The notes below the pieces were generated by a model. It saw only the letters and a list, made by a program, of their open reading frames with translations. It ran no database searches and had not been told where the DNA came from. This document shows, in pieces, positions 19,673 to 27,066 of a stretch of 64,000 nucleotides of DNA (positions are counted from its first letter, which is position 1; each line of letters begins with the position of its first letter). Source of the stretch: Burkholderia cenocepacia (GTDB lineage: Bacteria > Pseudomonadota > Gammaproteobacteria > Burkholderiales > Burkholderiaceae); contig NZ_CP060039.1 in assembly GCF_014211915.1 (NCBI RefSeq), forward strand, positions 2,728,001 through 2,792,000, given 5' to 3'. The position numbers and the translations under genes were made by a program.

Positions 19673-19723
19673 TTGGGGCGCGCAATGACGCTGGCTACAC
19701 TCGCCCCATCTTGTCATAACAAG
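19673..19723 (+). promoter_or_regulatory. Promoter and operator candidate of the AprA-like operon
   Basis: TTGGGG (19673-19678), a 17-nt spacer and TACACT (19696-19701) form a moderate promoter. A palindrome CTTGT-CATA-ACAAG (19710-19723) lies at about the transcription start and ends 7 bp before the ATG. It also occupies the Shine-Dalgarno region; no strong ribosome site is otherwise visible. Binding by the regulator encoded next would block its own operon. Confidence 0.5.
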
Positions 19724-19730
19724 TTGACCG

Positions 19731-20501
19731 ATGACCCCACCCAACGTCGTGCCGCTGTCCGCGGCCCCGCTCTACGTGCAGATCAAGGACACGCTGCGCG
19801 CGCGCATTCTCGACGGCACCTACGCGCCGCACAGCCGGATGCCGTCCGAGCACGAGCTCTGCGCGATGTTCGACGTCAGCCGCATCACGGTGCGCCAGGC
19901 GCTCGGCGACCTGCAGAAGGAAGGCCTGCTGTTCAAGCTGCACGGCAAGGGCACGTTCGTGTCGAAGCCGAAGGCGTTCCAGAACGTGACGTCGCTGCAG
20001 GGTTTTGCCGAGGCGATGTCGTCGATGGGCTACGAGATCGTCAACCAGTTGCGCAGCCTGCGCACCGTGAAGGCCGATCGCCATCTCGCGACGAAGCTGA
20101 ACGTGCAGGAAGGCGCGCCGCTCGTCGAGATCCATCGCGTGCGGCTGCTGAACCGCGAACCCGTGTCGCTCGAACAGACCTGGGTGCCCGAAGCGCTCGG
20201 CAAGCGCCTCGCGGGCGCCGATCTCGCGACCCGCGACATCTTCCTGATCCTCGAGAACGACTGCGGCATCCCGCTCGGCCATGCCGACGTGTCGATCGAC
20301 GCGATCCTCGCGGACGACGAAATCGTCGACGCGCTGCACGTCGAGGAAAGCAGCCCCGTGCTGCGCATCGAGCGCCTCACGCACGACGCGTCGGGTGCGC
20401 CGATCGACTACGAATACCTCTACTTCCGCGGCGACGCCTTCCAGTACCGGTTGCGCGTCGACCGGCAAAAGGCGCGCAAACCTGCAAGGAGCCCGCGATG
20501 A
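19731..20501 (+). CDS. GntR family regulator, HutC/UTRA subfamily
   Basis: Regulator of 256 residues. The winged HTH (residues ~12-80) contains SRMPSEHELCAMFDVSRITVRQALGDLQKEGLLFKLHGKGTFV. The UTRA ligand-binding domain follows (residues ~95-245: LQGFAEAMSSMGYEIVNQ, EIHRVRLLNREPVSLEQTWVP, APIDYEYLYFRGDAFQYRL). It is the first gene of the AprA-like operon, and its stop overlaps the next start by 4 bp, so it is made together with the enzymes. It is most likely a local repressor relieved by the transported compound or a product of it. Confidence 0.93.
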   Translation: MTPPNVVPLSAAPLYVQIKDTLRARILDGTYAPHSRMPSEHELCAMFDVSRITVRQALGDLQKEGLLFKLHGKGTFVSKPKAFQNVTSLQGFAEAMSSMGYEIVNQLRSLRTVKADRHLATKLNVQEGAPLVEIHRVRLLNREPVSLEQTWVPEALGKRLAGADLATRDIFLILENDCGIPLGHADVSIDAILADDEIVDALHVEESSPVLRIERLTHDASGAPIDYEYLYFRGDAFQYRLRVDRQKARKPARSPR

Positions 20502-22237
20502 ATACCCATGTGCACGAATACGACGTCGTCGTGGTCGGCGGCGGCACGGCCGGCCCGATGGCCGCCATCAAGGCGAAGGAGCGCGATCCGTCGCTGCGCG
20601 TGCTGCTGCTCGAGAAGGCCAACGTGAAACGCAGCGGCGCGATCTCGATGGGGATGGACGGCCTGAACAACGCGGTGATCCCCGGTCATGCGACGCCCGA
20701 GCAATACACGCGCGAGATCACGATCGCCAACGACGGGATCGTCGACCAGGAAGCCGTGTACGCGTATGCGACGCACAGCTTCACGACGATCGAGCAGCTC
20801 GACCGCTGGGGCGTGAAGTTCGAGAAGGACGGCACCGGCGACTACGCGGTGAAGAAGGTCCATCACATGGGCTCGTACGTGCTGCCGATGCCGGAGGGCC
20901 ACGACATCAAGAAAGTGCTGTACCGGCAACTGAAGCGCGCACGCATCGCGATCACGAACCGGATCGTCGCGACGCGCGTGCTGACCGACGCGCAGGGGCG
21001 CGCGAGCGGCGTGCTCGGTTTCGATTGCCGCACCGCCGACTTCCACGTGATCCGCGCGAAGGCCGTGATCCTCTGCTGCGGCGCGGCCGGCCGTCTCGGG
21101 CTGCCGGCATCGGGCTACCTGATGGGCACGTACGAGAACCCGACCAACGCGGGTGACGGCTACGCGATGGCCTATCACGCGGGTGCCGCGCTCGCGAACC
21201 TCGAATGCTTCCAGATCAATCCGCTGATCAAGGATTACAACGGCCCGGCGTGCGCGTACGTGACGGGGCCGCTCGGCGGCTTCACCGCGAACGGCAAGGG
21301 TGAACGCTTCATCGAATGCGACTACTGGAGCGGCCAGATGATGTGGGAGTTCTACCAGGAACTGCAGAGCGGCAACGGCCCCGTGTTCCTGAAGCTCGAC
21401 CATCTCGCGGAAGAAACGATCCGGACCATCGAGCAGATCCTGCATACCAACGAACGGCCCAGCCGCGGCCGCTTCCATGCGGGGCGCGGCACCGACTACC
21501 GCAGCCAGATGGTCGAGATGCACATCTCCGAGATCGGCTTCTGCAGCGGCCACAGCGCGTCGGGCGTGTACGTGAACGCACGTGCCGAGACGACCGTGCC
21601 GGGGCTTTACGCGGCCGGCGACATGGCGGCCGTCCCGCACAACTACATGCTCGGGGCATTCACGTACGGCTGGTTCGCCGGGCAAAACGCAGCCGACTAC
21701 GTGGCCGGCCGCGACCACGCGCCGGTGGACGACCAACAGATCGACGCCGAGCGCACCCGCGTGCTCGCACCGCTGCTGCGCGAACGCGGGCTGGCGCCGG
21801 CGCAGGTCGAGTACAAGCTGCGCCGGATGGTGAACGACTACCTGCAACCGCCGAAGGTGACGCGCAAGATGGAGATCGGGCTGCAACGTTTTGACGGAAT
21901 TATTGAGGATATCGAAGAAATCAAGGCCGACAATCCGCACGAACTGATGCGTGCGGCCGAAGTGCGCGCGATCCGCGATTGCGCCGAAATGGCCGCGCGC
22001 GCGTCGCTGTTCCGCACCGAAAGCCGCTGGGGGCTGTACCACCATCGCGTCGATTTTCCGCACCGCAACGACGCGGAATGGTTCTGCCACACGTGGTTGC
22101 GCAAGGATACCGCAGGCGCGATGCGCAGCGAGAAGCGGCCGGTCGAACCGTACGTCGTGCCGCTCGCCGACGACGAACGCGGCGCCTACGCGCAGTTGCG
22201 CATCCGCGAACCGGCCGCGCTCGCGGCCGCCCTTTGA
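20498..22237 (+). CDS. AprA-like FAD-dependent oxidoreductase, fumarate reductase/adenylylsulfate reductase superfamily
   Basis: Flavoprotein of 579 residues. The FAD dinucleotide motif is VVVGGGTAGPMAAIKAKE (Gly14-Gly19), followed by LLLEKANVKRSGAISMGMDGLNN. That last stretch closely matches the equivalent segment of the AprA subunit of dissimilatory APS reductase (K.x.V.RSGA...G....N). It also has a second FAD contact (GLYAAGDMAAVPHNYMLGAFTYGWFAG) and the helical C-terminal domain. The downstream ferredoxin resembles AprB. AprA proteins are usually longer, and no ATP sulfurylase, QmoABC or dsr genes are nearby, so true sulfate respiration is unlikely. The natural substrate is unknown. NCBI-style labels such as fumarate reductase flavoprotein would be family-level only. 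Confidence 0.85.
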   Translation: MNTHVHEYDVVVVGGGTAGPMAAIKAKERDPSLRVLLLEKANVKRSGAISMGMDGLNNAVIPGHATPEQYTREITIANDGIVDQEAVYAYATHSFTTIEQLDRWGVKFEKDGTGDYAVKKVHHMGSYVLPMPEGHDIKKVLYRQLKRARIAITNRIVATRVLTDAQGRASGVLGFDCRTADFHVIRAKAVILCCGAAGRLGLPASGYLMGTYENPTNAGDGYAMAYHAGAALANLECFQINPLIKDYNGPACAYVTGPLGGFTANGKGERFIECDYWSGQMMWEFYQELQSGNGPVFLKLDHLAEETIRTIEQILHTNERPSRGRFHAGRGTDYRSQMVEMHISEIGFCSGHSASGVYVNARAETTVPGLYAAGDMAAVPHNYMLGAFTYGWFAGQNAADYVAGRDHAPVDDQQIDAERTRVLAPLLRERGLAPAQVEYKLRRMVNDYLQPPKVTRKMEIGLQRFDGIIEDIEEIKADNPHELMRAAEVRAIRDCAEMAARASLFRTESRWGLYHHRVDFPHRNDAEWFCHTWLRKDTAGAMRSEKRPVEPYVVPLADDERGAYAQLRIREPAALAAAL

Positions 22238-22248
22238 GGAACCTTGCC

Positions 22249-22494
22249 ATGTCCCATACCCCGCACGACATCTTCCAGCGCAGCAGCGCGCCCGTGACGA
22301 TCGACGAGTCGCTGTGCATCGCCGACAAGGGCTGCACCGTGTGCGTCGACGTGTGCCCGCTCGACCTGCTCGCGATCGACGTCACCAAGGGCAAGGCCTA
22401 CATGCAGTTCGACGAATGCTGGTACTGCATGCCGTGCGAACGCGACTGCCCGACCGGCGCGGTCAAGGTCGACATTCCTTACCTGCTGCGCTGA
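22249..22494 (+). CDS. AprB-like 2x[4Fe-4S] ferredoxin
   Basis: 81-residue electron carrier with two [4Fe-4S] sites. The cluster ligands fall in Cys23-x5-Cys29-x2-Cys32-x3-Cys36-Pro and Cys57-x2-Cys60-x2-Cys63-x3-Cys67-Pro. Wording such as VCPLDLLAIDVTKGKAYMQFDECWYCMPCERDCPTGAVKV parallels the cluster-binding half of AprB, but the C-terminal tail that embraces AprA in true APS reductases is absent. GAGGA lies 8 nt upstream. It follows the flavoprotein by 11 bp and is its likely redox partner. Confidence 0.9.
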   Translation: MSHTPHDIFQRSSAPVTIDESLCIADKGCTVCVDVCPLDLLAIDVTKGKAYMQFDECWYCMPCERDCPTGAVKVDIPYLLR

Positions 22495-22549
22495 CGCGGC
22501 GCGGCGCGGCGCCCACCAAGGATCGTGCCGGCCATTTTAACGGTGGAAT

Positions 22550-22609
22550 GCCGCTGTCAAACAGCGGCGCTCCTTTCCTCCCCGTCCTGAAGGGCCGGGT
22601 TTCTCGGAG
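22550..22609 (+). repeat. Two stem-loops in the 121-bp gap before the binding-protein gene; possible IS200/IS605-type end remnant
   Basis: A perfect 7-bp hairpin GCCGCTG-N5-CAGCGGC (22550-22568) is followed by TTTCCTCCCCGTCCTGAAGG and GGCCGGGTTTCTCGGAG, containing a second imperfect hairpin (22581-22587 with 22593-22599). The second part resembles the right ends I associate with IS200/IS605 elements carrying only tnpB. GGAG at 22606-22609 serves as ribosome site for the next gene. No transposase is present. Confidence 0.35.
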
Positions 22610-22615
22610 CAACTG

Positions 22616-24040
22616 ATGAAAACAACGCTACGGATGTTTCGCCTGCTCACCGCGTCGCTCGCGGTCGCGGCCACCGGTTTCGCGCATGCGGAGACGATCC
22701 GCGTCGCGATCGGCACACAGGACACGACGATCAACTGCGCGACCGGCGGCCTGCTGATCCGTGAACTGCATCTGCTCGACAAGTACCTGCCGCGCACCGG
22801 CAAGTACCAGGACGTGAAATACGACGTGCAGTGGAAGGATTTCACGTCCGGCGCGCCGCTCACCAACGAGATGGTCGCCGGCAAGCTCGACTTCGGCGCG
22901 ATGGCCGATTTCCCCGGTGCCTTGAACGGCGCGGCGTTCCGCAAGGCCGGCCGCAAGAGCGTGTTCATCACCGTGCTCGACGGCAGCATCGACGGCAGCG
23001 GCAACGGGATCGTCGTCCCGTCGAATTCGACGGTGCGCGGGCTGGCCGACCTCAAGGGCAAGACGATCTCGGTGCCGTTCGCATCGACCGCGCACGGCAT
23101 GCTGCTGCGCGCGATCAAGGCCCAGGGCTGGAACCCCGACACCGACGTGAACATCGTCACGCAGGCGCCCGAAGTGGCCGGCAGCGCGCTGAAGGCGAAC
23201 AAGATCGACGCGCATGCGGATTTCGTGCCGTTCGCCGACCTGTTCCCGTACCGCGGCATCGCGCGCAAGATCTACGACGGCGCGCAGACCCACGCGCCGA
23301 CCTTCCACGGCGCGCTCGTCGATGCGGACTACGCGCAGCGCTATCCGGAAATCGTCGTGGCCTATCTGCGTGCCGCGATCGAAGCGAACCGCCTGCTCGC
23401 GCAGAACCCGGAAAAGTACAGCCTGCTGATCGAGAAGGTCACCGGCATCGAGGCGCCGGTCGACTACCTGTATCACGGGCCGCTCGGCATCCAGACCCGC
23501 GACCTGACGTGGAAGCCCGAATACCGGCAAGCGGTCGCGACGGCGATCGATACGCTGAAGCTGCTGAAGAAGACCGACTCCGCGCCCGATCCCGCGACGT
23601 TCGTCGACGACCGCTATATCCGCGCGGCGTTCAAGGCGTCCGGGCTCGATTACGACGCGGCGTTGAAACACTACGGCAAGCAGCCGCTCGTCGCGAACGA
23701 TGCGACGACCGGCAAGCCGATCCGCGATTTCAACGACGTCGCGCAAGTGTGGCTCACCAGCGACGAACCGGTACGCAACTACGCGAGCCCCACCGCCGCG
23801 TTCGTGGCGCTCGGCAAACTCGGCCCGTCCGCGAAGGTGCGGGCGGTGTTCGTGCACGACCATGCGAGCGGCCTGAAGCTGTTCGCCGACCAGGCGTGGT
23901 ACGTGAAGGACGCACACGGCGTGCTCACCGCGTTCCTGTTGAAGTCGGGCGCCGACGCGTACGCGCAGCAGGTATCGGGCGCGGTGGTCGACTACGCGGC
24001 CGCGAAGACCGTCACCGCGCAGGCGCTCGCCGCCCGCTGA
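22616..24040 (+). CDS. ABC transporter periplasmic binding protein (SsuA/TauA/NrtA type) with NosL-like C-terminal extension
   Basis: 474-residue exported protein. The signal peptide is 1-25, cut after FAHA. Residues ~28-345 form the NMT1/SsuA-like binding domain (IRVAIGTQDTTINCATGGLLIREL, VAGKLDFGAMADFPGAL, LKGKTISVPFASTAHGMLLRAIKAQGW). This is over 100 residues longer than usual. The extension (~365-465) contains AVFVHDHASGLKLFADQAWYVKD, GVLTAF, GADAYAQ and SGAVVDYAAAK, which resembles the NosL copper-chaperone fold but lacks a CGM metal motif. The substrate is unknown; relatives carry sulfonates, nitrate or pyrimidine precursors. Confidence 0.85.
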   Translation: MKTTLRMFRLLTASLAVAATGFAHAETIRVAIGTQDTTINCATGGLLIRELHLLDKYLPRTGKYQDVKYDVQWKDFTSGAPLTNEMVAGKLDFGAMADFPGALNGAAFRKAGRKSVFITVLDGSIDGSGNGIVVPSNSTVRGLADLKGKTISVPFASTAHGMLLRAIKAQGWNPDTDVNIVTQAPEVAGSALKANKIDAHADFVPFADLFPYRGIARKIYDGAQTHAPTFHGALVDADYAQRYPEIVVAYLRAAIEANRLLAQNPEKYSLLIEKVTGIEAPVDYLYHGPLGIQTRDLTWKPEYRQAVATAIDTLKLLKKTDSAPDPATFVDDRYIRAAFKASGLDYDAALKHYGKQPLVANDATTGKPIRDFNDVAQVWLTSDEPVRNYASPTAAFVALGKLGPSAKVRAVFVHDHASGLKLFADQAWYVKDAHGVLTAFLLKSGADAYAQQVSGAVVDYAAAKTVTAQALAAR

Positions 24041-24086
24041 ACGTCGCGCGCCTTTCCCCTTCCATTCGTCGACACCGGACTTCCGC

Positions 24087-24962
24087 ATGGCTGCCACCCT
24101 CGACCTCGTCAAACGCCGTCTCGCCGACGCACCGCGCAGCGGTGACACCCGCTCGCCGCATTCCGCCGCGCGCCGCCGCTCGACCCCGATGCGCCGCCGC
24201 GCATGGCGCATCGCGTCGCTCGCCGCCTGCATCGCGCTGTGGCAGGCCGCTGTTCACTGGCGGCTGTCGCTCGGCATCGTCACGTTCGCGAACGTGCCCG
24301 CGCCGGCCGACGTCGGCCCCGCGCTGGCAGCGTTCCTGCAATCGCCGAAGCTGCCGATGCACCTGTTCGCGAGCATCACGCGCGTGCTGGCCGGCTTCGT
24401 CGCGGCGGCGGTCGCCGGCATCGGCCTCGGGCTCGCGATCGGCCGCTATCGCGCGCTCGAGGACACGCTGCTGCCGCCGCTCGAGATGCTGCGGCCGATT
24501 CCGGCCGTCGCGTGGATTCCGCTCGCGATCCTGATGTTCCCGTCGTCCGAGCTGAGCATGATGTTCATCACGTTCGTCGGCGCGCTGTTCCCGATCCTGC
24601 TCAATACCGTGCATGGCGCCGAAGCCGTCGACCCGCGACTCGTCGCGACCGCGCGCAGCCTCGGCACGCGCGGCCTCGCGCTCTATGCGGAAGTGATCCT
24701 GCCCGGCGCCGCGCCATCGATCTTCACGGGCCTGTCGATCGGAATGGGCACCGCGTGGTTCTGCCTCGTCACGGCCGAGATGATCGCGGGCCAGTACGGG
24801 ATCGGCTATTTCACGTGGGAATCCTATACGTTGCAGAACTACCCGGACATCGTGGTCGGCATGGCGCTAATCGGCCTGCTCGGGATGGGCAGCAGCCTGC
24901 TCGTCAAGCGTATCGGCGCGGCGCTCACGCCGTGGTACGCACCGCGTGGAGGCCGATCATGA
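24087..24962 (+). CDS. ABC transporter permease, SsuC/TauC family
   Basis: Inner-membrane permease of 291 residues with a ~45-residue basic N-terminal extension and six hydrophobic segments. The EAA loop that contacts the ATPase is recognisable as HGAEAVDPRLVATARSLGTRGLALYAEVILPGAAPSIFTGL, typical of the nitrate/taurine/sulfonate family. Its TGA overlaps the ATPase start by 4 bp (ATGA). It lies 46 bp after the binding-protein gene. Confidence 0.92.
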   Translation: MAATLDLVKRRLADAPRSGDTRSPHSAARRRSTPMRRRAWRIASLAACIALWQAAVHWRLSLGIVTFANVPAPADVGPALAAFLQSPKLPMHLFASITRVLAGFVAAAVAGIGLGLAIGRYRALEDTLLPPLEMLRPIPAVAWIPLAILMFPSSELSMMFITFVGALFPILLNTVHGAEAVDPRLVATARSLGTRGLALYAEVILPGAAPSIFTGLSIGMGTAWFCLVTAEMIAGQYGIGYFTWESYTLQNYPDIVVGMALIGLLGMGSSLLVKRIGAALTPWYAPRGGRS

Positions 24963-25747
24963 GTACGCCGGACATTGCGTCGCCCGCGCCCGGCCGTATC
25001 GGCGTGCGCGCGCTGACGATCGAACTCGGCCCGCCGCATGCGCGCTTCGCGGCGCTCGATACGCTCGACGTCGACATCTCACCCGGCGAATTCGTCTGCG
25101 TGCTCGGGCCGTCCGGCTGCGGGAAATCGACGCTGCTCGGCGCGCTCGCCGGCCACGTCGCGGCCACGCATGGCGAGATCATGGTCGACGGCGAACGCGT
25201 CGACCGCCCGCATCCCGATCGCGGGCTCGTGTTCCAGCAGCACACGCTGTTTCCGTGGAAGCGCGTGATCGACAACGTCGCGTTCGGCCTGAAGATGAAA
25301 GGCGTGCCCGCGCGGGAGCGCCGCCGCGAAGCGGCCGAACTGCTCGAACTCGTCGGGCTCGGCGGCTTCGGCGCGCACTATCCCGCGCAGCTTTCCGGCG
25401 GCATGCAGCAGCGCGTCGAGATCGCCCGCGTGCTGATCAACCGGCCGCGCGTGCTGCTGATGGACGAGCCGTTCGGCGCGCTCGACGCGCAGACGCGCCG
25501 GATGATGCAGACGCTGCTGCTCGACATCTGGTCGCGCATCGGCACGACCGTGCTGTTCGTCACGCACGACATCGAGGAAGCGCTGTTTCTCGGCGACCGC
25601 ATCCTGATGCTGTCGCCGCGGCCCGCGCGCATCGTCGCCGATATCCGCGTGCCGCTCGCGCGGCCGCGCACCGACGACAGCACGACCGAGCCCGCGTTCG
25701 TCGACATCAAACGCCGCTGCCTCGCGCTGTTGCGCGACGCCGCCTGA
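24959..25747 (+). CDS. ABC transporter ATP-binding protein, SsuB/TauB family
   Basis: 262-residue ATPase energising the adjacent permease. The Walker A motif is GPSGCGKST, the Q-loop VFQQHTLFPWK, the signature LSGGMQQR, Walker B RVLLMDEPFGALD, and the switch His in LFVTHDIEEALFL. VFQQ..LFPW is typical for importers of the nitrate/sulfonate group. The start ATG 24959 is coupled to the permease stop. Longer open frames upstream lie inside the permease gene and are not meaningful. Confidence 0.94.
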   Translation: MSTPDIASPAPGRIGVRALTIELGPPHARFAALDTLDVDISPGEFVCVLGPSGCGKSTLLGALAGHVAATHGEIMVDGERVDRPHPDRGLVFQQHTLFPWKRVIDNVAFGLKMKGVPARERRREAAELLELVGLGGFGAHYPAQLSGGMQQRVEIARVLINRPRVLLMDEPFGALDAQTRRMMQTLLLDIWSRIGTTVLFVTHDIEEALFLGDRILMLSPRPARIVADIRVPLARPRTDDSTTEPAFVDIKRRCLALLRDAA

Positions 25748-25786
25748 ACGCACGTGCCCGCCCATTCACCGCACCGACTCTTTCCC

Positions 25787-26791
25787 ATGACCGCTTCTTC
25801 CTCCGCTTTCCCGCTGCCCGGCGTGCCGGCCGCCGATCACGCCGATCATGCCGCGCTCGTCGCGCGCCTCGCCGCGGCCGACGCATCGGTGCGCCGCATC
25901 GCGCTGCTCGAACTCGCCGATCTCGAAGCGCCCGAACTCGTGCCGTCGTTCATCGCGGCGCTGCGCGACGACCCGTCGGCCGACGTGCGCAGCGAGGCCG
26001 CGCGCGTGCTCGACGCATGGGAGCAGCCCGAGGTCGTCGACGCGCTGTGCCACGCGCTGCTCGATCCGGACGACGGCGTGCGCGCCACCGCCGCGCAAAG
26101 CCTGTCCGAACTGAAGGACACGGCATCGGGCGCCGTGCTGTGCCGCTGGGCCGATCGGCCGGAGCCGTTCGTGCGCGGCGCCGTGCTGCGCGGCTTGCGC
26201 GAGTTGCGCGACCCCGACGCGTTCGCGCCCGCGCTGCGCGCGCTCGACGCGAGCGCCGCTGCCGTCCGCGCCGAGGCGGTCGTCGTGCTCGGCTGGCTCA
26301 AGGACGGCCGCGCGCTGCCGCCGCTCGCCCGCGTCGCGACCGCGGACGCCGACGCGGACGTGCGGCGCGCCGCGGTCGGCGCGATCGGGTTTGCGGCGGC
26401 GGGCGACACCGCCGTCGTCACCGCGTTGCTCGCGGCGCTGCGTGACGCCGAGTGGCAGGTGCGCGAGGAAGCCGCCAGCACGCTCGGCAAGCTGCGCATC
26501 ACCGTTGCGCGCGACCCGCTCGTCGCCGCGCTCGACGACGATTACTGGCAAGTGCGCGTGCGTGCCGTCCGCGCGCTGGGCCAATTGCGCGATGCGGCCG
26601 CGGCGTCGGCCGTCGTCGCGCTGCTCTCGCATGCGATCAGCAATCTGCGCAAGGAAGCCGCGCTCGCGCTCGGCGAATTGCGCGACCGGGCGACGCTGCC
26701 CGCGCTGCACGACGCACTCGACGATCGCGACCCCGAAGTCCGCAAGGCCGTGCGGATCGCGATCGGACAGATCGACGAGGCGTCGCGATGA
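25787..26791 (+). CDS. HEAT-repeat protein
   Basis: 334-residue all-helical protein built almost entirely of ~31-residue HEAT/PBS-lyase-like repeats. Examples are DDPSADVRSEAARVLDAW, DPDDGVRATAAQSLSELKD, DADADVRRAAVGAIGFAAAGD, DAEWQVREEAASTLGKL, DDYWQVRVRAVRALGQLRD and DRDPEVRKAVRIAIGQI. No signal peptide. Such proteins act as scaffolds, and some help insert cofactors (the CpcE/F lyases), so it may assist assembly of the flavoprotein-ferredoxin pair. That is inference from operon position. The ATG 25787 is preferred over GTG 25754. Its stop overlaps the next start by 4 bp. Confidence 0.88.
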   Translation: MTASSSAFPLPGVPAADHADHAALVARLAAADASVRRIALLELADLEAPELVPSFIAALRDDPSADVRSEAARVLDAWEQPEVVDALCHALLDPDDGVRATAAQSLSELKDTASGAVLCRWADRPEPFVRGAVLRGLRELRDPDAFAPALRALDASAAAVRAEAVVVLGWLKDGRALPPLARVATADADADVRRAAVGAIGFAAAGDTAVVTALLAALRDAEWQVREEAASTLGKLRITVARDPLVAALDDDYWQVRVRAVRALGQLRDAAAASAVVALLSHAISNLRKEAALALGELRDRATLPALHDALDDRDPEVRKAVRIAIGQIDEASR

Positions 26792-27066
26792 TCGCGCCGA
26801 CCGAAATCGCACTCGATCACCCGGCACGTGCACTGACGCTGCGCTGGCCCGATGGCGCGACGCAACGTATCGACTATGTGCAATTGCGCGGCAGTTGTCC
26901 GTGCGCGGAATGCCGAAAGATCCGGCTCGACGGCGGCCAGGTCGACGCGCGGCCCGGCCTGACGCTCGACGGCGTCGAGGCGCTCGGCTACGGCGTGCGC
27001 CTTCTGTTCGGCGACGGCCACGCACGCGGCATTTATCCGTGGCCGTACCTGGCGGACCTCGCGTAG
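26788..27066 (+). CDS. DUF971 (gamma-butyrobetaine hydroxylase N-terminal-like) protein
   Basis: 92-residue protein. It has the DUF971 pattern: IALDHPARALTLRWPDGATQRIDYVQLRGSCPCAECR, then EALGYGVRLLFGDGHARGIYPWPYLADLA. Cys37, Cys39 and Cys42 form the CPCxxC cluster, with His/Asp nearby, and look like a zinc- or Fe-S-binding site. DUF971 domains occur alone near Fe-S assembly genes and fused to gamma-butyrobetaine hydroxylase. It is last in the operon and coupled to the HEAT gene (ATGA). It may help metal-centre assembly, which is a guess. Confidence 0.88.
   Translation: MIAPTEIALDHPARALTLRWPDGATQRIDYVQLRGSCPCAECRKIRLDGGQVDARPGLTLDGVEALGYGVRLLFGDGHARGIYPWPYLADLA

Follow-up and report, generated by a model that had tools for sequence, protein, structure and literature searches.

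The window, a 64,000-nt stretch of DNA (contig positions 2728001-2792000) from a Burkholderia cepacia complex genome of 7.6 Mb, carries an operon of eight genes at positions 19731-27066. The database proteins most similar to its products come from Burkholderia, mainly B. cenocepacia and related species of the cepacia complex. All eight lie on the plus strand, and all frames are open. At its core are a flavoprotein and a small ferredoxin that together resemble AprBA, the two-subunit adenosine 5'-phosphosulfate (APS) reductase, and these are accompanied by an ATP-binding cassette (ABC) importer, a GntR/UTRA regulator, a HEAT-repeat protein, and a DUF971 protein. The operon forms a module, conserved and probably self-regulated, around the AprBA-like enzyme. 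No published description of it was found in a literature search confined to one paper collection. The genes and associated features are as follows:

19710-19723, no strand: perfect palindrome CTTGTCATAACAAG, likely operator of the GntR/UTRA regulator
19731-20501, plus strand: GntR/UTRA (HutC-type) regulator (Pfam UTRA 132 bits, GntR 76.5 bits)
20498-22237, plus strand: flavin adenine dinucleotide (FAD) flavoprotein, AprA-like alpha subunit (NCBIfam PRK08275, 1152 bits)
22249-22494, plus strand: two-cluster ferredoxin, AprB-like beta subunit (best NCBIfam match aprB, below its cut-off)
22517-22620, no strand: end of a tnpB-type element (104 nt; 11 genome-wide matches including itself)
22616-24040, plus strand: SsuA/TauA-type substrate-binding protein with a C-terminal NosL-like domain (top folds TauA/SsuA)
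24087-24962, plus strand: NitT/TauT-type ABC permease (Pfam BPD_transp_1)
24959-25747, plus strand: NitT/TauT-type ABC ATPase (taurine ATPase model 253 bits, cut-off 357)
25787-26791, plus strand: HEAT-repeat protein of PBS-lyase type (HEAT_2, 199 bits)
26788-27066, plus strand: DUF971/GBBH-like_N protein with a Cys motif (PF06155, 67.6 bits)

A first-pass annotation of the same DNA had described these genes as one functional unit, with four junctions that overlap by 4 bp or are very short. The unit is borne out, with all eight genes present and their linkage kept across 80 relatives (see below). Three overlaps were found rather than four, and they are exact (ATGA at 20498, 24959, and 26788), as the annotation had placed them. 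The remaining gaps are 11 nt between flavoprotein and ferredoxin, 121 nt between ferredoxin and binding protein (containing the tnpB-type element end), 46 nt between binding protein and permease, and 39 nt between ATPase and HEAT protein, for which a GTG at 25754 is an alternative start. Between 19500 and 27300, Rfam gave no match at E ≤ 0.1, a promoter scan found none, and terminator-like sites were no commoner than in shuffled sequences.

A genome scan returned at least 589 relatives of the flavoprotein. The best 80 loci, all from Pseudomonadota, were fetched, and their genes were matched at E up to 1e-8 and coverage of at least 40%. The ferredoxin is present in 80/80 loci, the HEAT protein in 78/80 (both misses, L044 and L096, stop at a contig edge), and the GntR/UTRA regulator in 77/80. 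Any similar ABC ATPase was found in 67 of the 80, the binding protein in 64 (L082, L106, and L109 among them at just 23-26% identity), DUF971 in 63, and the permease in 61 (L052 and L099 at just ~30% identity or less). Therefore, the gene arrangement is far beyond chance. The importer is separable from the rest, because the 11 importer-less loci that were inspected hold no frame of at least 100 aa from ferredoxin to HEAT.

The flavoprotein occurs in 15/299 genomes sampled from the phylum, the window's own genome counted, and this patchy occurrence is as for an accessory function. Additionally, a plasmid search matched 51 records at E up to 1e-100, and 16 plasmid regions were read, including those of four cyanobacteria and one actinomycete. 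Ferredoxin and HEAT repeats are present in all 16, and DUF971 is annotated in seven. The operon spans three phyla: Pseudomonadota, Cyanobacteriota, and Actinomycetota. Its linkage with the HEAT, DUF971, and transporter genes, whose absence would have counted against the first-pass annotation, is conserved in Pseudomonadota and also, in rearranged form, in the four cyanobacterial loci and the one actinomycete locus. In Nostoc edaphicum (L023:11707-14888), two HAD hydrolase genes and methyltransferase, GNAT, and VOC genes stand between flavoprotein and ferredoxin.

The annotation had also held that flavoprotein and ferredoxin closely resemble the subunits of APS reductase; the two-subunit plan stands, whereas the closeness does not. 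The flavoprotein passes the curated cut-off of PRK08275 (NF006131; 1151.8 bits against 587), fails the aprA model TIGR02061 (179 bits against 641.75), and is below the cut-off of PRK06854 (286 bits). Its best solved relative by sequence is the alpha subunit of the Methanothermococcus thermolithotrophicus 3'-phosphoadenosine 5'-phosphosulfate (PAPS) reductase (8a8o, 204 bits; PMC10322725), and AprA of Archaeoglobus fulgidus is also among the closest. A fold search agrees that these two are closest, from a weak model of the flavoprotein. That AlphaFold model is poor (66.5), and the active-site assignments below therefore rest on sequence alignment. In an unrooted tree of 26 rows, from which the L122 and L123 frames were left out and in which long branches leave finer placement unsure, AprA and the PAPS reductase (MtPAPSR) group together with 100/100 branch support and without the flavoprotein family, and SdhA and NadB form a separate clan. 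The tree that the annotation had proposed thus sets the flavoprotein apart from both groups.

The active-site residues of AprA were taken from PMC2211403 (A. fulgidus AprBA; 1jnr/2fja). By alignment, Asn-74, His-398, and His-446 of AprA are kept as N57, H352, and H381, while Trp-234 and Arg-265 are replaced by Y212 and L243. None of these five positions varies across the 19 and the 26 sequences of two family alignments. The nucleotide-recognition loop of AprA and PAPS reductase is swapped for a family-specific segment, V121-P132, in which V121, H122, G125, and Y127-P132 are invariant. The M. thermolithotrophicus reductase has the same alpha-beta plan as the operon's pair, but it keeps the AprA Arg and Trp and groups with AprA, neither of which holds for the operon flavoprotein; its PAPS loop (residues 104-123 of 8a8o) has no counterpart here. 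A role in sulfate assimilation, as APS or PAPS reductase, would fit the closest solved relatives, yet it is highly improbable and was rejected: Arg-265 and Trp-234 are replaced, the loop is replaced, the models are far below cut-off, the family lies outside the AprA/PAPSR clan, and a dedicated importer would be pointless. On sequence grounds, the pair has the plan of AprBA and not its substrate site.

Other residues bear on whether the enzyme acts on sulfur or on carbon. A Q-x-N-P segment (Q239, N241, P242) is closer to the Q-F-H-P of SdhA and NadB than to AprA at that place. This similarity, the loss of Arg-265, and the unrooted tree, in which the family is not part of the AprA clan and SdhA/NadB make up a third group, would suit a complex that acts on the carbon skeleton of a sulfonate by reducing a C=C or C=O bond or by dehydrogenation (compare fumarate reductase), with sulfite released elsewhere or later. 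However, the AprA-type Asn (N57), which SdhA and NadB do not have, the His-446 equivalent, the K-D segment, and the AprB-type Trp of the ferredoxin are all kept, and action on the carbon skeleton is considered unlikely.

The ferredoxin carries eight Cys in two [4Fe-4S] motifs and W58, each conserved in at least 98% of 87 sequences. It fails the aprB model TIGR02060 (38.3 bits against 135.65), and AprB chains are among its solved-structure matches. In alignment, W58 takes the position of Trp-B48 of A. fulgidus AprB, the residue that carries electrons between cluster I and FAD (PMC2211403). The architecture of an FAD-binding alpha subunit with a beta subunit of two clusters and an electron wire is thus that of AprBA, unlike which the beta subunit is short (just 81 aa), the flavoprotein forms a separate clade, and an importer lies alongside.

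Genes near the operon point to the source of the electrons. An FdxA gene lies 3' of HEAT in 14/80 loci, three of which also have ferredoxin-NADP reductase (FNR) and seven a large Nfn-like oxidoreductase. The prototype of the latter (L020:10574-14035, 1153 aa), encoded immediately 3' of FdxA in Acidithiobacillus caldus, scores below cut-off against glutamate-synthase/Nfn-like models and might serve the system as a ferredoxin reductase. FdxA and ferredoxin-NADP reductase are also present in Methylobacterium radiotolerans. Because FdxA, sometimes with a ferredoxin reductase, adjoins HEAT, electrons probably flow into the complex, which would hence be a reductase.

The annotation had assigned the transporter to the sulfonate/taurine/nitrate type, and the SsuA/TauA-like fold and an invariant Gln of its binding protein agree with a sulfonate-type importer. 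The AlphaFold model of the binding protein has a predicted local distance difference test score of 86.6, and its top fold matches are TauA and SsuA. Q35 aligns with the sulfonate-binding Gln of Xanthomonas citri SsuA (3e4r), and therefore with Gln30 of TauA, and is invariant in 14/14 and 28/28 binding proteins. The amine-binding residues of TauA are not kept (Asp205 is His231 and Glu106 is Asn130, both invariant). The C-terminal NosL-like domain comprises about 120 residues; a NosL profile at E up to 0.1 matches 11/14 and 25/28 relatives, and it does not match the window's own copy. The NosL copper chaperone has a Cys/Met copper motif. The final 125 residues of the window's binding protein include neither Cys nor Met, two Cys are kept in this domain in L025, L038, L039, L041-L043, L055, L059, L086, L107, and L111, and the other copies checked have no Cys there. 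In comparison to SsuABC and TauABC, the binding-protein fold and the sulfonate-binding Gln are shared, whereas the NosL-like domain, His231/Asn130, and a partner enzyme that is neither SsuD nor TauD are not.

The family models leave room for a different cargo. The binding protein fails the SsuA model TIGR01728 (117 bits against 163.5), the permease is below the cut-offs of the ntrB, SaoP, SsuC, and TauC models, and the best-scoring transporter models come from several families (ntrB, Sao, Ssu, Tau), none of which reaches its cut-off. Additionally, NrtA/CmpA-type proteins fit the binding-protein fold nearly as well as TauA/SsuA, and acid-mine sulfur oxidisers carry the operon. The importer might therefore carry a different small anion or the precursor of a cofactor, which the flavoenzyme would reduce. 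Set against this are the invariant sulfonate-type Gln and the presence of TauD, TauE, and sulfonate and sulfate transporter genes nearby in several lineages, and a substrate other than organosulfur seems doubtful.

Considered as a whole, the linkage, the AprBA plan, the FdxA/FNR neighbours, the invariant Q35, and the TauE, PF03601, and TauD neighbours described below favour import of a sulfonate-like compound followed by ferredoxin-driven, reductive release of sulfite. This reading is tentative, with a probability of roughly 0.4. The ABC importer would take up a small compound with a sulfonate-like group, and the cytoplasmic alpha-beta enzyme would draw electrons from NAD(P)H via ferredoxin and pass them through the two clusters and the conserved Trp to FAD. 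The SO3 group would then be removed reductively, most likely by attack of the reduced flavin N5 on sulfur, as in the mechanism of AprA, and sulfite would leave. The interpretation offered by the first-pass annotation, in which an importer delivers an organic, perhaps sulfur-containing, compound to a two-subunit redox enzyme, is supported as a whole, and neither the tree nor the linkage in other genomes contradicted it.

Sulfur-related neighbours are scattered. In three cyanobacterial plasmids, of which two are from Pseudanabaena, the operon has TauE/SafE and PF03601 genes as neighbours, and in Aquabacterium it has TauE. Sulfonate/sulfate markers (TauD, LLM monooxygenases, sulfate-binding protein, and others) are present in 15/80 loci, a count with no matched background computed, and five of these loci are Caballeronia with the same gene. 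A TauD of more than 50% identity is present as one copy in 4/5 genomes; in G058 and G146 its gene is close upstream of the operon, with a second TauD-like gene between, and in the other two it is elsewhere. TauE or YeiH homologues were detected in just 2/80 loci (tblastn, eight query proteins), and the 7.6 Mb genome has four TauE genes as background, such that enrichment is not clearly above chance; co-location as a general rule is unsupported and gives scattered support at most. The presence of the operon in acid-mine sulfur oxidisers (Acidithiobacillus, Thiobacillus) is a poor fit for sulfonate import and sulfite release.

Those same two genera would suit a substrate of another kind, a sulfur oxyanion that is inorganic or S-linked (thiosulfate, polythionate, or S-sulfonate), whose good leaving group is chemically apt for flavin N5 attack. 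However, the importer is of sulfonate type, and S-sulfonates are already handled by simple thiol chemistry, which makes an oxyanion substrate quite improbable. In Acidithiobacillus caldus plasmid pTcM1, an insertion element apparently interrupts the binding-protein gene, and the surroundings include an OprD-type porin gene.

Sulfite release from sulfonates by SsuD, TauD, Xsc, and the glycyl-radical sulfite-lyases employs O2 and flavin, O2 and 2-oxoglutarate, thiamine diphosphate, or a radical, respectively. The presumed outcome here (sulfonate to sulfite) is the same, whereas the operon would use ferredoxin electrons and FAD. A broader proposal is that the family is a third AprBA-type class, with O2-independent, ferredoxin-driven desulfonation via a flavin N5-sulfite adduct, accompanied by an importer, accessory proteins, and sometimes a sulfite exporter, in aerobic Pseudomonadota, Cyanobacteria, and Actinomycetota; this is somewhat unlikely in its full form. 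If sulfonate import and reductive sulfite release are correct, an undescribed O2-free route from sulfonate to sulfite would be present in many soil, plant-associated, cyanobacterial, and clinical bacteria, and the fold behind sulfate respiration would have been reused for organic sulfonates, with the AprBA electron wire retained and the substrate pocket altered. The operon is compact, apparently self-regulated, and found in easily grown bacteria, and the question of its substrate is thus directly testable.

The HEAT and DUF971 proteins may help in assembly of the complex or in cluster loading. The HEAT protein corresponds to the C-terminal region of the PRK13800 model, which describes a flavoprotein-HEAT fusion, and in the actinomycete Tsukamurella (L024) a single 893-aa protein comprises flavoprotein and HEAT repeats (PRK13800 1568 bits against a cut-off of 1196; HEAT_2 94.8 bits). 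The Cys motif of DUF971 is present in 63/63 copies collected, the window's included. In all four cyanobacteria, an Mrp/NBP35-type gene (by Pfam for two of them) stands 3' of HEAT in place of DUF971, and this substitution suggests that DUF971 serves cluster loading.

Control of the operon appears to be local. The palindrome CTTGTCATAACAAG at 19710-19723 has no second copy in the 7.6 Mb genome, even when one mismatch is allowed. A first, stricter operator pattern matched 25/77 upstream stretches, and a relaxed pattern, picked after that result, lies between -200 and +120 of the regulator start in 51/76 loci, versus eight sites elsewhere in those loci. Caballeronia accounts for five of the eight outlying sites, at about 850 bases past the start of the regulator, and the one of these that was traced (L070) lies between regulator and flavoprotein. 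Of the others, the L078 site precedes the binding protein, the L042 site is 290 bases upstream of the regulator, and the site at L041:8014 is just before a TauE/SafE frame that is itself 3' of a PF03601 exporter gene. The palindrome is likely the operator of the GntR/UTRA regulator, and because it is unique in the genome and clustered near the regulator start in relatives, the regulator looks dedicated to the operon, where it would sense the imported compound or its product. In one relative (L041), a sulfite-exporter-type gene may belong to the same regulon. A general sulfur-starvation regulon as sole control is not favoured, given the unique palindrome.

The cyanobacterial loci have a divergent regulator of ~670 aa at L022:7661-9676, with similar frames at L029:7379-9415 and L030:7676-9676. 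The L022 regulator combines a LysR domain with an NMT1-like binding-protein domain (weak, 20.8 bits) and is possibly a sensor built from the importer's own binding fold.

Finally, the element end between ferredoxin and binding protein belongs to a tnpB-type element, which we take to be IS200/IS605-like; longer genomic copies of ~1.16 kb hold a TnpB-like frame. It stops at the ATGA of the binding-protein start and provides a ribosome-binding-like GGAG before the ATG. The same element end abuts apparent gene starts in other genomic copies (L140, L142, and L143), and an element target complementary to ATGA would explain its position at gene starts.

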